64,000 nt of DNA from assembly GCA_947450325.1 (NCBI GenBank), contig CANFUT010000021.1, positions 1 to 64,000 on the forward strand. The letters run 5' to 3'. The notes below the pieces were generated by a model. It saw only the letters and a program-made list of their open reading frames with translations, was not told the DNA's origin and ran no database searches. A program made the translations under genes and the position numbers. Positions 23,206 through 27,838 of this stretch are shown piece by piece. Source of the stretch: Flavobacteriia bacterium (lineage in GTDB: Bacteria > Bacteroidota > Bacteroidia > Flavobacteriales_D > Crocinitomicaceae). The stretch's first letter is position 1; the number at the start of each line of letters is the position of its first letter.

Positions 23206-23388
23206 TTAAACATTTTTCTTTTTAATGAAAAATAAAACGACGGCCAACAGAAATGTTCCAATTATTTGAATAGGAATATTCAATGTGTCGATTTGGGGAT
23301 AACATACATGAACAACCTTTGTTAAACCGAAGATTATCCCAAAAAGTACAACCCAAAACAAAAAGATATTTTTCAAAATAGTAATCAT
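23206..23388 (-). CDS. Possible small two-helix membrane protein
   Basis: A 60-codon frame from the ATG at 23388 encodes two hydrophobic segments (FLFWVVLFGIIFGLTKVV and IIGTFLLAVVLFFIKK) and a basic tail. This fits a small inner-membrane protein. There is no recognisable family and the AT-rich region could generate such a frame by chance. It lies alone between the mltG terminator and the sigma-factor gene. Confidence 0.35.
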   Translation of the reverse strand: MITILKNIFLFWVVLFGIIFGLTKVVHVCYPQIDTLNIPIQIIGTFLLAVVLFFIKKKNV

Positions 23389-23649
23389 TTCGGCATTCAA
23401 TATTTTAGCTTTTGAAATTCAAACATACAAAAAAAAACAACAATTTTTCATTTGGTTATACAAATCTATCAATTCGTTTTTTCTAGCTTTCACAACACTT
23501 TCCAAACATTTATTTTCAAATTTTTATAATAACTAGAATTTTTGGTTCGTTTTATGATAAAATAGTGTAACGAATTATAAAGTTTGCATTATTTGATTGT
23601 AAAGTCTGCAAGCTTTACATGCATAAAACCAAAAATAAAACCAGAAATC

Positions 23650-24219
23650 ATGACAGTTAACCCATTGTATCACCACACACACGAGCGTCTTGAGGAGGAG
23701 CAAGTGTGGATACAGCAAGCTAAAAGCAACCCTGAGTTGTTTGGCCCGCTGTACAAGAAATACCATGAGCCCATTTTCCGGTACATTCACCAACGGATGG
23801 ATGATACCGAAATGGCATTTGATGTTACGTCACAAGTATTTATGAAAGCATTGAAAAATATTCATAAATATGAGAATAGAGGAGTACCATTCGGTTCTTG
23901 GTTGTATCGAATTGCGAAAAGTGAATTGTATCAATCTTTCCGCGACAAGCAATCACTAAGAACAGTGAATGTTGAAAGTGTTACTCTTTTTGAAATGATG
24001 GATGAAATGGACGAAGATCAATCTGAAATCAATAAAAAAATTCTTTTTCGTGCATTGGGTAAAATGAAAGAAGAGCCACTTCAGTTGATAGAAATGCGTT
24101 TTTTCGAACGACGTTCTTTCAAAGAAATTGGCGAAATTTTAGACATCACTGAAAACAATGCAAAAGTGAAGTGTTTTAGAGCGTTAGAAAAATTAAAAAA
24201 ATATTTTCATGAGAAATAA
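23650..24219 (+). CDS. ECF-family RNA polymerase sigma factor
   Basis: This 189-residue protein starts at the ATG at 23650. An upstream in-frame ATG at 23584 would add 22 residues without homology. Region 2 is visible as LFGPLYKKYHEPIFRYIHQR through DVTSQVFMKALKNIHKYENR and PFGSWLYRIAKSELYQSFRD. Region 4 follows as IEMRFFERRSFKEIGEILD and ENNAKVKCFRALEKLKKYF, a helix-turn-helix that reads the -35 element. It directs transcription of an extracytoplasmic-stress or specialised regulon. No canonical zinc-type anti-sigma gene follows; instead there are a 48-codon gene and a membrane protein, each overlapping the previous one. Confidence 0.93.
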   Translation: MTVNPLYHHTHERLEEEQVWIQQAKSNPELFGPLYKKYHEPIFRYIHQRMDDTEMAFDVTSQVFMKALKNIHKYENRGVPFGSWLYRIAKSELYQSFRDKQSLRTVNVESVTLFEMMDEMDEDQSEINKKILFRALGKMKEEPLQLIEMRFFERRSFKEIGEILDITENNAKVKCFRALEKLKKYFHEK

Positions 24220-24355
24220 TAAGCATCATTTCAAGATTCCTTTCTTCCATCTGGAGGAAAGGAATTTGGCTACAATCAATAAAAAGCAAGACATTTTGAA
24301 ACAATATTTAGAACAGTTTTGTAATTTTCAACCTTTATTTAATTCGTGCAGATGA
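24209..24355 (+). CDS. 48-residue link protein between sigma factor and membrane protein
   Basis: An ATG at 24209 overlaps the last 11 bases of the sigma-factor gene and opens a 48-codon frame whose TGA at 24353-24355 overlaps the next gene's ATG at 24352 (ATGA). The product begins MRNNKHHFKIPFFHLEERN and continues with a helical segment (INKKQDILKQYLEQF). It has no membrane helix. The FKIP..xLEER pattern loosely recalls the cytoplasmic N-termini of Bacteroidota anti-sigma proteins, but this is weak. Overlap at both ends is the main reason to accept it. It may bind the sigma factor or serve only as a translational bridge. Confidence 0.55.
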   Translation: MRNNKHHFKIPFFHLEERNLATINKKQDILKQYLEQFCNFQPLFNSCR

Positions 24356-25974
24356 CCAATAGAAAAATGAATCTGGATCGCCCCAACCTAAATTCAGAGC
24401 AAATCAGCGCAAGACAAAATTTTGATAAAGTACTATCAAAACATTTGTTATCAAAACCTCCCGTTTGGAAAAATCCATGGTTTTGGGGACCAACAGGATT
24501 AGCCTCCATCGGAATCGCACTTTTTTTTAGTGTGAATTATTTAAACAGTCAAAATGAAACACATGATAAGACAAATACTTTAGCAATCACAGATTTACCA
24601 AAAGACACTGAATGTATTCATCCACCGATTGAAGGTGAAGATGTTCCATTTCAAACTTTTGAAGTAAATCCAAATAAAAACGAAGAAATCATTCTTCCAA
24701 GTGGGACAAAAATTGAGATTCCAAAAGAAAGTTTGTTACCTGAAAATAAGAATGAAAGCGTAGAAATTGAAGTGCGAGAATTTCCAAATAAAGTTTCTGC
24801 TTTTCTAGCTGGAATTCCTATGGATTATAAAAAAGAGGACGCATTCATCTCAGCAGGAATGATTGAAATTAGAGGGAAACAAAACGATCAAGTGGTTGAA
24901 ATTAATACCGAAAAACCGATTGAAATCGATATGATGTTGACTAAAAATCCTGCAGGTTTTGATTTTTGGAGCTTGAATGAAACAACAAGAGACTGGACCA
25001 AATATCCTGTAAAATATGAAATGAATCATCAAAAAGAGGAATCGAAATTGAGTTTGAATAATCCGGTTGCAATTAAAAAGCAGATTGCCAATATTGATGA
25101 TCAAATGGTCGCTTTAAACCAATCAAAATCGGAAGTTCAAAAGCCAAGTACTGAAAGTTTTAAAATCCCCAATGAATCTCATCAAAAATTCGACTTGGAT
25201 TTTAACAAGAAAACATATCCCGAATTAGCTAAATTTGAGAATCTAGTTTTTGAAATTCTACCAACTTCTGGTTATGACAAAAACTTTACAAAAAAAACAT
25301 GGTCGGATGTTAAATTGGAAAAAAATAAAGAAGTCTATGAAATGATTTTTACATCAAATTCTGAAAAAATGAGATTACCTGTTAGACCAGTTTTACAAGG
25401 TAAGGAATTGACAGAAGCCAGAAAGGAATTTGATGCGGCGATCAATAATTTCAACGAAACTGTTGCTGAAATTGAGAAAAACAAATCAGTCTTGCAAAAA
25501 CAAAAAGAAGCATATCAAAAGGCTTTGATGGGTGACTTGGCTGCATTAAATGAAAAAATAGTTAGTAACTCAGATGACAAAGGAACGGCAAGTTTTAAAT
25601 TGAATCAATGGGGTGTTTACAATTGTGACAAACCAAGTAGATACCCTGCTGCGATGAAAAATGAAACATTTTTTGTTTGGGAAAGCTCATCCAATTCAGC
25701 AGATTTTAATCAGATTTTTGTTTTTAACCTAGACAAAGATTTGAGATTCAATTATGGAGATAGAGCATTTCATCCTATTTCAAATTTTGGATTTCATGCA
25801 AATGATGAATTGATTATATTTGGTGTTGAAAGAGGAGGCGATTTCGGGATTTGTGAATTAAAAAGTGGAAAATCTAAAAATATTTCTTCGAAAATAATTT
25901 TCAAAAAGGAAGAAAACGGTGAATCTATCAAAGATGTACTCAATATGTTAATGAATGAAACTGTTTCTGTTTAG
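24352..25974 (+). CDS. Single-pass membrane protein with extracytoplasmic ZU5-like domain, sigma operon
   Basis: The 540-residue product has a cytoplasmic stretch of about 45 residues, one membrane helix (WGPTGLASIGIALFFSVNYL) and a large extracytoplasmic part. That part contains LPSGTKIEIPKESLLPE, VEIEVREFPN and FISAGMIEIRG, the same arrangement as in the lipoprotein at 3618-4556, then a coiled-coil (AAINNFNETVAEIEKNKSVL) and a C-terminal beta-rich part. Position directly after an ECF sigma gene, topology and ATGA coupling suggest that it is the sensor/anti-sigma component, although no known anti-sigma domain is visible. It overlaps the next gene by 20 bp. Confidence 0.7.
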   Translation: MTNRKMNLDRPNLNSEQISARQNFDKVLSKHLLSKPPVWKNPWFWGPTGLASIGIALFFSVNYLNSQNETHDKTNTLAITDLPKDTECIHPPIEGEDVPFQTFEVNPNKNEEIILPSGTKIEIPKESLLPENKNESVEIEVREFPNKVSAFLAGIPMDYKKEDAFISAGMIEIRGKQNDQVVEINTEKPIEIDMMLTKNPAGFDFWSLNETTRDWTKYPVKYEMNHQKEESKLSLNNPVAIKKQIANIDDQMVALNQSKSEVQKPSTESFKIPNESHQKFDLDFNKKTYPELAKFENLVFEILPTSGYDKNFTKKTWSDVKLEKNKEVYEMIFTSNSEKMRLPVRPVLQGKELTEARKEFDAAINNFNETVAEIEKNKSVLQKQKEAYQKALMGDLAALNEKIVSNSDDKGTASFKLNQWGVYNCDKPSRYPAAMKNETFFVWESSSNSADFNQIFVFNLDKDLRFNYGDRAFHPISNFGFHANDELIIFGVERGGDFGICELKSGKSKNISSKIIFKKEENGESIKDVLNMLMNETVSV

Positions 25975-26362
25975 TTTTTTAATGCTAAATAATCTTTTTT
26001 TAGTTGCTCAACCTGAAAAGATTGAACATGTAAAAATTGGCTTGGATTCCACTCAACAAGAAAATTTATTTCCGCATATTAATCAATATTATGAAGGTGA
26101 AATTCCGATTGCTCAGCTTGGTGATATGGAAGGCATTCAAACAGCAGAAAATTATAAAATTCAGTCATTTATAATAAATTATGCTCATGGTGAGAAAAAT
26201 GTATCCGTTGAGGTTAAAGGAAATATTATACCAAAAGAAGTAATAGAAGATATTTATAAATTTGCATTAGGCGAAATGGTTTTTATTACCAAAATCGTTA
26301 CTGAAGATGAAAATAAAAATATTTTTGAATTAATCCCAATGAATTTAATCCCAATAGAATGA
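25955..26362 (+). CDS. Small secreted protein, possibly GldM-C-like fold
   Basis: The 135-residue protein has a signal peptide (MKLFLFSFLMLNNLFLVAQ). The rest reads as a single beta-rich domain: YKIQSFIINYAHGEKNVSVEVKGNIIPKEV, then FALGEMVFITKIVTEDENK and FELIPMNLIPIE. The pattern of a G-x-x-I/L-P turn followed by a G-E-x-V-F-I-x-x-I strand recalls the C-terminal domain of the gliding/T9SS protein GldM. That is resemblance only. It overlaps the membrane protein by 20 bp and the next gene by 4 bp, so it belongs to the sigma operon. Confidence 0.6.
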   Translation: MKLFLFSFLMLNNLFLVAQPEKIEHVKIGLDSTQQENLFPHINQYYEGEIPIAQLGDMEGIQTAENYKIQSFIINYAHGEKNVSVEVKGNIIPKEVIEDIYKFALGEMVFITKIVTEDENKNIFELIPMNLIPIE

Positions 26363-26772
26363 AAGTACTACAGGTCTTATTTTTAACTGGTTTTTTGTCG
26401 ATCAATGGGTTTTCTCAAGAAAAAATTGAAACAGTAAAGATTGCAAAAAATGAATCGTTTTTATTCCGCGGTCAAGGTCAAGAAATAAACAATGGATATC
26501 TTTATGTAGATCAACAGGGTTATTTTTACTTTGTTGTTCTAACAATTAGTCAATCGGATGTTTTTAAATGGTTTGAACAGCGAAAAGACAGCCAAAATGT
26601 TTATAAAGGAATACTTCAAAATGGGCAATACAAAACGTTAACCTTAGTTCGGGAAAATGAACCAGGAGAACAGATGGTTTTCTATTTTGAAAAAAAGGAG
26701 AAAGACATAATTGAATTAATTTCCTTGGATGACGGAAAAATCTATGATTTCAAACAGATTTTAAGCAATTAA
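26359..26772 (+). CDS. Small secreted protein, unknown function
   Basis: This 137-residue protein has a Sec signal (VLQVLFLTGFLSINGFSQ) and a soluble mature part, with strands such as NNGYLYVDQQGYFYFVVLTI and EQMVFYFEKKEKDIIELI. I recognise no family. Its start overlaps the preceding stop as ATGA. It is the last gene of the run that begins with the ECF sigma factor. Its product probably acts in the periplasm with the other two exported products. Confidence 0.6.
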   Translation: MKVLQVLFLTGFLSINGFSQEKIETVKIAKNESFLFRGQGQEINNGYLYVDQQGYFYFVVLTISQSDVFKWFEQRKDSQNVYKGILQNGQYKTLTLVRENEPGEQMVFYFEKKEKDIIELISLDDGKIYDFKQILSN

Positions 26773-26896
26773 TGTGTTAGAATTCTCATTCACAGGTCGG
26801 TTTTGATAACTTATTCTAACAAATGTAGATTTAGAACATTTTTTTATTTAAATTCGTGACGTTAAATTGACATTTTGTGTCATTTTTATTTTAATT

Positions 26897-27838
26897 ATGA
26901 GATATTTTTTAACTTTTTGTTTAGTATTATCTAGTCTAATCTCTTTTAGTCAATCATCCAATTTCAACTCTGGGAAAAATTGGAAGTTGAATAGAAAAGA
27001 ATTAATCATTCAAGCAGGAGCTACGCAATTTTTAGGTGATTTGGGGGGAAGAGATCAAATTGGGACTGACTACAGTTTAGTTGATTTAAATTTTCCATCT
27101 ACTAGTTTTGATGTTGGTGTTGGCTATAGATATCGTTTCGCACCACATTTCGCAACTACTTCATTATTGAATATTGGGTTACTCAAAGGGAGCGATGCTT
27201 TAACAAACGATTCAGATAGACATGCAAGAAATTTATCGTTTCGATCTCCTGTTGTCAATTTAAGTCAGCGTTTAGAATGGTTAATTTTTGTAAATGAAAA
27301 ATATGGCAAAAGATACAACATGAAAGGCATGAAAGGCTTTGGGGAACACCATGATCAAGTTTATGTTTTTGCTGGAATTGGTTTTGCATATTTCAATCCA
27401 CAAGCCCAATATAATGGAAATTGGGTAAACTTGAGACCTTTAAAAACCGAAGGTCAAGGATTAGAAGGTGGTGCAAAAGTTTATTTACCATTTACTGCAA
27501 CTATTCCGATTGGAATAGGTTACAGAAGAGCACTTGCTGGAATGTGGAGAATTGGTATTGAAGCTACGTATGTTAAAACTTTTTCAGATTACATCGATGA
27601 CGTTCATGGTTTCTATTACGATCCTACTATTTTAGCTACTCAAGTCTCTGCAACTTCTGCAGCATTGAGTAATCCATCAGTAACACATCCAGAATGGTTT
27701 AATCCCGGATCAAAAAGAGGTGAGCCTCAAAAAGATGCTTATTTTTATGTTAATTTGACTTTTTACAAAAACTTCTCATATAAACCAATGAAGAAAATGC
27801 GAATTTCTCGATACAAAGGAGGAAGAGCGAAGTTCTAA
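26897..27838 (+). CDS. PorG-like (DUF6089) outer-membrane protein
   Basis: Starting at the ATG at 26897 gives 313 residues with a signal peptide (MRYFLTFCLVLSSLISFSQ). The mature part opens with the pattern ELIIQAGATQFLGDLGG and continues with SFDVGVGYRYRFAPHFA, then further barrel strands and YFYVNLTFYKNF. This matches PorG/DUF6089-type barrels that belong to or resemble T9SS core components. The C-terminal basic tail (RISRYKGGRAKF) is also typical. PorG anchors the PorK/N ring in the outer membrane. Paralogues of other function exist, so the T9SS role is likely but unproven. Confidence 0.75.
   Translation: MRYFLTFCLVLSSLISFSQSSNFNSGKNWKLNRKELIIQAGATQFLGDLGGRDQIGTDYSLVDLNFPSTSFDVGVGYRYRFAPHFATTSLLNIGLLKGSDALTNDSDRHARNLSFRSPVVNLSQRLEWLIFVNEKYGKRYNMKGMKGFGEHHDQVYVFAGIGFAYFNPQAQYNGNWVNLRPLKTEGQGLEGGAKVYLPFTATIPIGIGYRRALAGMWRIGIEATYVKTFSDYIDDVHGFYYDPTILATQVSATSAALSNPSVTHPEWFNPGSKRGEPQKDAYFYVNLTFYKNFSYKPMKKMRISRYKGGRAKF

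Follow-up and report, generated by a model that had tools for sequence, protein, structure and literature searches.

Most of what is known of the control of type IX secretion system (T9SS) and gliding-apparatus synthesis in Bacteroidota comes from PorXY-SigP of a single pathogen, Porphyromonas gingivalis, where SigP is an extracytoplasmic function (ECF) sigma factor under PorXY (PMC4800418). A report on Flavobacterium psychrophilum describes an SM6 ECF promoter class that precedes T9SS genes as well as an ECF/anti-sigma pair, THC0290_1774/1773 (PMC9723704). Dma factors, likewise from Bacteroidota, combine an ECF sigma factor with an anti-sigma-like membrane protein that has one helix, a long outer part and a barrel (PMC13088901). 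Here we analysed a 64,000-nucleotide stretch of contig CANFUT010000021.1 from a member of the Crocinitomicaceae (the whole stretch is called the window below) and describe in it an operon of overlapping frames headed by an ECF sigma gene. We interpret the operon as encoding an ECF sigma factor that regulates its own expression, together with its cognate membrane anti-sigma factor and a T9SS-linked sensing part, and assign this reading a probability of roughly 0.55. The features on which it is based, in window coordinates, are the following.

23566..23593, forward strand: ECF-type promoter, TGTAAC-N16-ATTATT (consensus TGTAAC-N16/17-RTTATW)
23597..23619, forward strand: 5' leader hairpin with a 6-7 bp stem and CTGCAAG in the loop, between the promoter and the start codon
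23650..24219, forward strand: ECF sigma factor of 189 amino acids, with Pfam sigma70 r2, r4 and r4_2 matches above cut-off
24352..25974, forward strand: single-pass membrane protein of 540 amino acids; the putative anti-sigma module spans residues ~1-45, the membrane helix residues 47-62, and what follows is extracytoplasmic
25955..26362, forward strand: e1, an exported protein with a PorM/GldM D4-like predicted fold, homologous to the extracytoplasmic domain of ~260-amino-acid relatives of the membrane protein
26359..26772, forward strand: e2, a small exported protein of unassigned fold, conserved in most loci that have the long-form membrane protein
26897..27838, forward strand: outer-membrane beta-barrel (OMP), a PorG paralogue without the C-tail cysteine

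Recomputed coordinates agree with those of an initial annotation, made from the sequence of the window, which had listed five overlapping frames in a row with overlaps of 11, 4, 20 and 4 bp. Its assignment of the first product as an ECF sigma factor is also borne out, with sigma-70 regions 2 and 4 scoring well above the Pfam cut-offs, and the last two frames (25955-26362 and 26359-26772) do encode small exported proteins. The third product is, as it had stated, a single-pass protein, with ~45 residues ahead of its only predicted membrane helix (47-62) and an extensive extracytoplasmic region. The label 'ZU5-like' for the latter region has to be abandoned: the first member of the family has no Pfam ZU5 match, and the 25 Pfam families that most of the 33 family members match do not include ZU5. 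Compared with solved structures, the model of the membrane protein had no similar entry at E ≤ 0.001 and no barrel match. It consists of a beta domain, a coiled coil and a second beta domain; the barrel is the product of a separate gene.

Our interpretation of the membrane protein depends on its N-terminal module of ~45 residues, which has the consensus MxxRKxNLDRxxxSSExIxxxQNFDxVL...KPxxWKxPWFxG. The membrane protein occurs in three architectures, of ~540 amino acids (21 loci), ~260 amino acids (12 loci) and 99 amino acids (1 locus), and only the first ~85 residues are common to them. The module is the one part shared by these three forms and by a 66-amino-acid protein encoded beside a paralogous ECF sigma factor, and in every case it adjoins an ECF sigma gene. 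Outer parts have been swapped on a constant cytoplasmic module that always lies by an ECF sigma factor, the pattern expected of an anti-sigma factor. Judged from this sequence pattern, the membrane protein is quite probably an anti-sigma factor of an undescribed family. A class I/zinc-binding (ASDI/ZAS) type is not indicated, with no Pfam anti-sigma match and no cysteine before residue 88. Nor is a FecR type, there being no Pfam FecR match and the neighbours being e1, e2, the PorG-like barrel and pyrD. In the model, the module forms two short helices (15-21 and 24-30) followed by the membrane helix, at a predicted local distance difference test score (pLDDT) of ~50, and a CnrY match is absent.

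Cys88, which lies just beyond the membrane helix and is a possible disulfide partner, has an aligned cysteine in all 21 long forms. Lipoproteins of 430-470 amino acids (L073-L079), to which no function is assigned, are relatives of the outer part of the long form. A tree of the long and short forms requires at least three changes between them without fixing their direction; a deletion between neighbouring genes would turn a long form into a short one.

The promoter pattern TGTAAC-N16/17-RTTATW, with minor departures allowed, lies upstream of 34 of the 35 sigma orthologues, against a chance expectation of ~0.2 matches per 64 kb, and the same scan at the starts of OMP, pyrD and e2 gave almost nothing. 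The loop of the leader hairpin carries CTGCAAG in most loci. Over 25 distinct sequences, 97.3% of the cells of its six-pair stem are paired, and the covariation of the stem is 0.823 versus 0.225 in shuffled alignments and ≤0.167 when the stem is slid. The hairpin has one significant copy in the genome, at the sigma locus, and a search of Rfam returned no credible family, so that we regard it, with its CUGCAAG loop, as a candidate for a new cis-acting RNA element. In one congener (G071) the sigma gene and the OMP gene are kept side by side, while the membrane gene, e1, e2, the promoter and the leader hairpin are all lost; the sigma factor of this congener sits on a long branch, that is, it is fast-evolving. 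The initial annotation had proposed a cell-surface signalling unit with the membrane protein in the position of an anti-sigma factor but lacking a known anti-sigma domain. That proposal gains from the gene order, the overlaps, the N-terminal module and the joint loss of membrane gene and promoter in this congener; the 48-residue gene that it had counted as a working part does not (see below).

The connection to the T9SS comes from e1, the OMP and the candidate regulon. The outer domain of the ~260-amino-acid forms of the membrane protein is homologous to e1 (blastp up to 5e-19). The e1 model has a pLDDT of 86, with 96 residues at ≥90, and a Foldseek search against the PDB gave strong matches only to the C-terminal domains of PorM/GldM (E 7e-6 to 2e-3, the next match being at 0.03). 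The best of these, PorM (E 7e-6, probability 1.00, TM 0.63), places the predicted model in the D4 fold. GldM_4th is the commonest Pfam match in the e1 family (best relative E 0.0023); e1 of the window itself has no match to this Pfam family. Because one group of relatives has the module and a D4-like domain in a single fused protein, and the other exports the D4-like protein separately, the two are suggested to act jointly. The only NCBIfam match of the OMP is T9SS_PorG, at 56 bits versus a cut-off of 130, which falls short of equivalog status. In F. johnsoniae, GldK forms disulfide bonds with both SprF and PorG, the latter through the C-tail cysteine of PorG (PMC12635249). This cysteine is absent from the OMP homologues; the true PorG of the same genome ends in RKCNMPR. 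On balance, we favour a link between the system and the T9SS. A relationship between e1 and e2 as paralogues was also considered and is unsupported on comparison.

The gldKLMN operon carries a promoter that resembles that of the sigma gene. In the family, TGTAAC-N17/18-GTTATA is found at the gldK start in 62 of 70 loci (L133-L162 and L168-L207) versus 1.3 in shuffles, and the genome of the window is included (TGTAACCATTTTAGAGAGGGTACCGTTATA, at C11:44037-44066, locus L168). Strict matches to the sigma promoter number ~49 across 240 genomes, versus ~12 in a reversed control. Of the strict matches inspected, about half stand at this sigma gene and most of the others 10-60 nt before genes for secreted proteins. 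Strict promoters were found before gldK (in two genomes), before a GldK/GldJ-like lipoprotein and before a protein with a C terminus that, by eye, looks like the T9SS C-terminal domain (CTD). That this very sigma factor reads the gldKLMN promoter is a possibility, suggested by promoter likeness, to which we give slightly less than even odds. Uncharacterised secreted proteins of several genera that are encoded closely 3' of a strict promoter (L104, L105, L111, L113, L119, L124, L127 and L131) are candidate regulon members.

Between the sigma gene and the membrane-protein gene lies a stretch with three further features.

24209..24355, forward strand: 48-codon open frame, probably no conserved gene, possibly a translational coupler
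24236..24265, forward strand: intergenic hairpin with a 13-bp stem and a 4-nt loop, within the 48-codon stretch
24287..24321, forward strand: second, weaker hairpin before the membrane-protein gene, from predicted folds

The initial annotation had described the 48-codon frame as a hidden gene and suggested checking its conservation. The frame exists at 24209-24355 and overlaps both neighbours. Every one of the four members of the genus that have the membrane gene also has the frame open, with the same start, stop and length; its support as a gene is weak, the frame being absent outside the genus and under selection that is weak at best. Its product is 92% and 75% identical to those of the two closest relatives, and in a third congener (L043) the frame is open with residues that are barely similar. 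Values of dN/dS are 0.40-0.78 for the frame, whereas the sigma gene has 0.03-0.04 and the membrane-protein gene ~0.1. In a codon-aware permutation test with BLOSUM scores, equal-sized windows of the neighbouring genes nearly all gave p ~0. The four members of the genus share the geometry of the hairpin, and compensatory changes affect five of its pairs, each of them in the most diverged of the four congeners; the region 24220-24351 folds with a z of -4.24 versus shuffles. A terminator scan did not call the hairpin as a standard intrinsic terminator, and the 140-bp stretch that contains it is present as a single copy in the genome, which speaks against a repeat element. Because the frame is absent outside one genus and the RNA hairpin explains the sequence at least equally well, a hidden gene as a working part of the system is unsupported. 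The sequence comparison suggests that the stretch is probably a structured RNA spacer that separates the sigma gene from the putative anti-sigma gene, and the frame is most likely no component of the system.

Translation of the frame could nevertheless serve as a coupler, a role compatible with our interpretation of the operon: ribosomes that reach the sigma stop codon would restart, melt the hairpin and arrive at the start of the membrane-protein gene. The constant start, stop and length in four congeners, one of them with a diverged sequence, fit such a role, and an open frame would arise by chance at this composition with a probability of only ~0.03-0.04. Overlapping both neighbours, the frame would also keep the coupling that relatives obtain by direct overlap. 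The permutation test gave p 0.042 in one of three pairs, but 0.17 and 0.91 in the others; the residues of L043 are barely conserved, and the hairpin alone constrains the sequence. We consider a coupler possible, though doubtful. Much less plausible still is that the 48-residue product regulates the sigma factor, as a small anti-sigma factor or an adaptor. Its location between the sigma gene and the partner gene would suit this function; yet outside the genus these two genes adjoin or overlap each other in 28 of the 30 loci (-14 to +13 nt), leaving no room for the frame while the same sigma factor and membrane protein are present, which also rejects the product as a conserved component of the family. 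The remaining two loci have gaps of 159 and 185 nt, and the 185-nt gap holds no frame of more than 20 codons. Purifying selection on the product is unsupported, and no profile matched it above any cut-off.

Several observations weigh against the interpretation of the operon as a sigma/anti-sigma pair with a T9SS-linked sensing part. The N-terminal module has no match in Pfam, NCBIfam or solved structures, and the model is poor over it (pLDDT 36-53). The membrane protein might instead be a co-expressed envelope or T9SS accessory that inhibits nothing, with the sigma factor set by transcription or by a PorX-like regulator. The lack of a known anti-sigma domain would agree with this, as would the control of P. 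gingivalis SigP by PorX binding (PMC4800418) and the fact that G071 lives without the membrane gene. However, the cytoplasmic module stays constant as outer parts are exchanged and recurs in the 66-amino-acid protein beside the paralogous sigma factor, and the loss of the membrane gene accompanies the loss of the promoter; we hold this alternative to be improbable. On the T9SS side, the link to D4 depends chiefly on the predicted fold, because profile-profile alignment of e1 with GldM by hhalign gives a weak E of 0.043, and the sequence matches in the PDB, although to PorM/GldM only, are at E 0.2. The gldK promoter has a spacer of 17-18 versus 16-17 at the sigma gene itself, and its -10 element has drifted to GTTAAW in several short-form genera with the sigma promoter unchanged, differences that fit a different sigma factor at gldK. 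In the genome of the window the promoter pattern has 20 sites versus 19 in the reversed control, that is, no enrichment, and, the two being indistinguishable, the regulon was judged by phylogenetic conservation alone; the bona fide porG of this genome is without the promoter. The pair may sense something other than the state of the T9SS, its D4-like and PorG-like parts being general envelope domains borrowed from T9SS ancestors. In addition to the differences at gldK, a PorG paralogue without the cysteine that links PorG to GldK and a long-form outer part related to function-unassigned lipoproteins would be in agreement with such a borrowing. Against it, outer-membrane proteins of T9SS type are encoded at both of the paralogous sigma loci, and in relatives strict promoters precede gldK and the genes for GldK/GldJ-like and CTD-like proteins. 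Among the alternatives we take this one most seriously, but regard it as unlikely.

In the autoregulated sigma/anti-sigma system that we prefer, the ~45-residue cytoplasmic module would tether the sigma factor to the inner membrane. The state of the outer envelope, probably of the T9SS or the gliding apparatus, would be reported by the extracytoplasmic part in concert with the exported e1 and the PorG-like barrel. Release from the module would allow the sigma factor to drive its own promoter and probably T9SS-related genes, and the leader hairpin, joined in this genus by the intergenic hairpin, may set the ratio of sigma to anti-sigma factor. We speculate further that the components form a feedback circuit dedicated to the T9SS and gliding machine. 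In it, the anti-sigma factor, from a family not seen before, would bear or recruit a copy of the motor-arm tip, the D4 domain of GldM/PorM, and act with a PorG mimic unable to be locked to GldK; engagement or occupancy of the track would then release the sigma factor to raise gldKLMN and related genes, with the covarying leader RNA as a second level of control. This circuit is tentative, and as a whole unlikely. The conserved operon joins an ECF sigma factor, an anti-sigma-like protein that has no recognised anti-sigma domain, a putative PorM/GldM-D4-like sensor domain and a PorG mimic, and through it cells may be able to tune the secretion machinery at their surface. If the interpretation is correct, it would offer a direct genetic handle on the sensing of the secretion-motor state from outside the inner membrane.

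The unit extends beyond the five frames, to the promoter and leader hairpin on the 5' side and to the PorG-paralogous barrel on the 3' side, where pyrD adjoins. The initial annotation had included neither these elements nor the intergenic hairpin, and had drawn no connection to the T9SS. In relatives the gene order is sigma, membrane protein, e1, e2, OMP, pyrD, and the OMP gene lies 3' of the sigma gene in most loci, among both long and short forms. Upstream of the OMP gene is one further element.

26849..26866, forward strand: candidate housekeeping -7 element (TAnnTTTG-like) of the OMP gene, recurring, by eye, upstream of OMP in relatives

A 64-codon frame for a small hydrophobic protein (23206-23400, reverse strand) is located upstream of the sigma gene and divergent from it. 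The ECF sigma factor is one of 17 sigma70-region-2 matches in its 3.4-Mb genome, and a related sigma factor (E ≤ 1e-25) is present in 222 of the 240 genomes of the family. The closest public matches to the membrane protein come from two metagenome-assembled flavobacterial genomes, at 90% and 85% identity. The paralogous ECF sigma factor elsewhere in the genome (contig C13; L092:4075-8165) has 44% identity; the gene for the 66-amino-acid module protein follows directly behind it, and then genes for PorP/SprF-family and PorE-like OmpA proteins.

Among the open-access papers searched we found none that combines anti-sigma, GldM and PorM; subscription papers lay outside this search. As in CnrY-like class II anti-sigma factors, a very short cytoplasmic part is followed by one membrane helix, but there is no sequence match to them, the module is poorly modelled, the outer part differs and no metal-system neighbours were seen. 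FecI/FecR also couples an ECF sigma factor and a membrane anti-sigma factor to an outer-membrane partner; in contrast, no FecR domain and, among the adjacent genes, no TonB-dependent receptor are found here. SigP of P. gingivalis shares with this locus an ECF sigma factor tied to T9SS gene expression (PMC4800418), where the likeness is limited to promoter similarity at gldK and T9SS control by our sigma factor is putative. SigP is controlled by PorX binding, whereas the sigma factor of this locus has a membrane-anchored partner encoded alongside it, and the promoter is unlike the suggested SigP motif. Common to the SM6 system, as far as the accessible part of its description goes, are an ECF promoter class at T9SS genes and a sigma/anti-sigma pair; a sensor domain or leader hairpin was not found described in that part (PMC9723704). 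Dma factors, which with SigP are the nearest of the systems compared, share with this locus the ECF sigma factor, the anti-sigma-like membrane protein with one helix, the long outer part and the barrel (PMC13088901). In Dma the outer part and the barrel belong to a single polypeptide with a disordered tether, while here the barrel is a separate protein of PorG type, the outer part consists of folded domains and a coiled coil, and a D4-like protein is encoded separately. The locus would thus represent a new variant of ECF/anti-sigma envelope signalling, probably linked to the T9SS.

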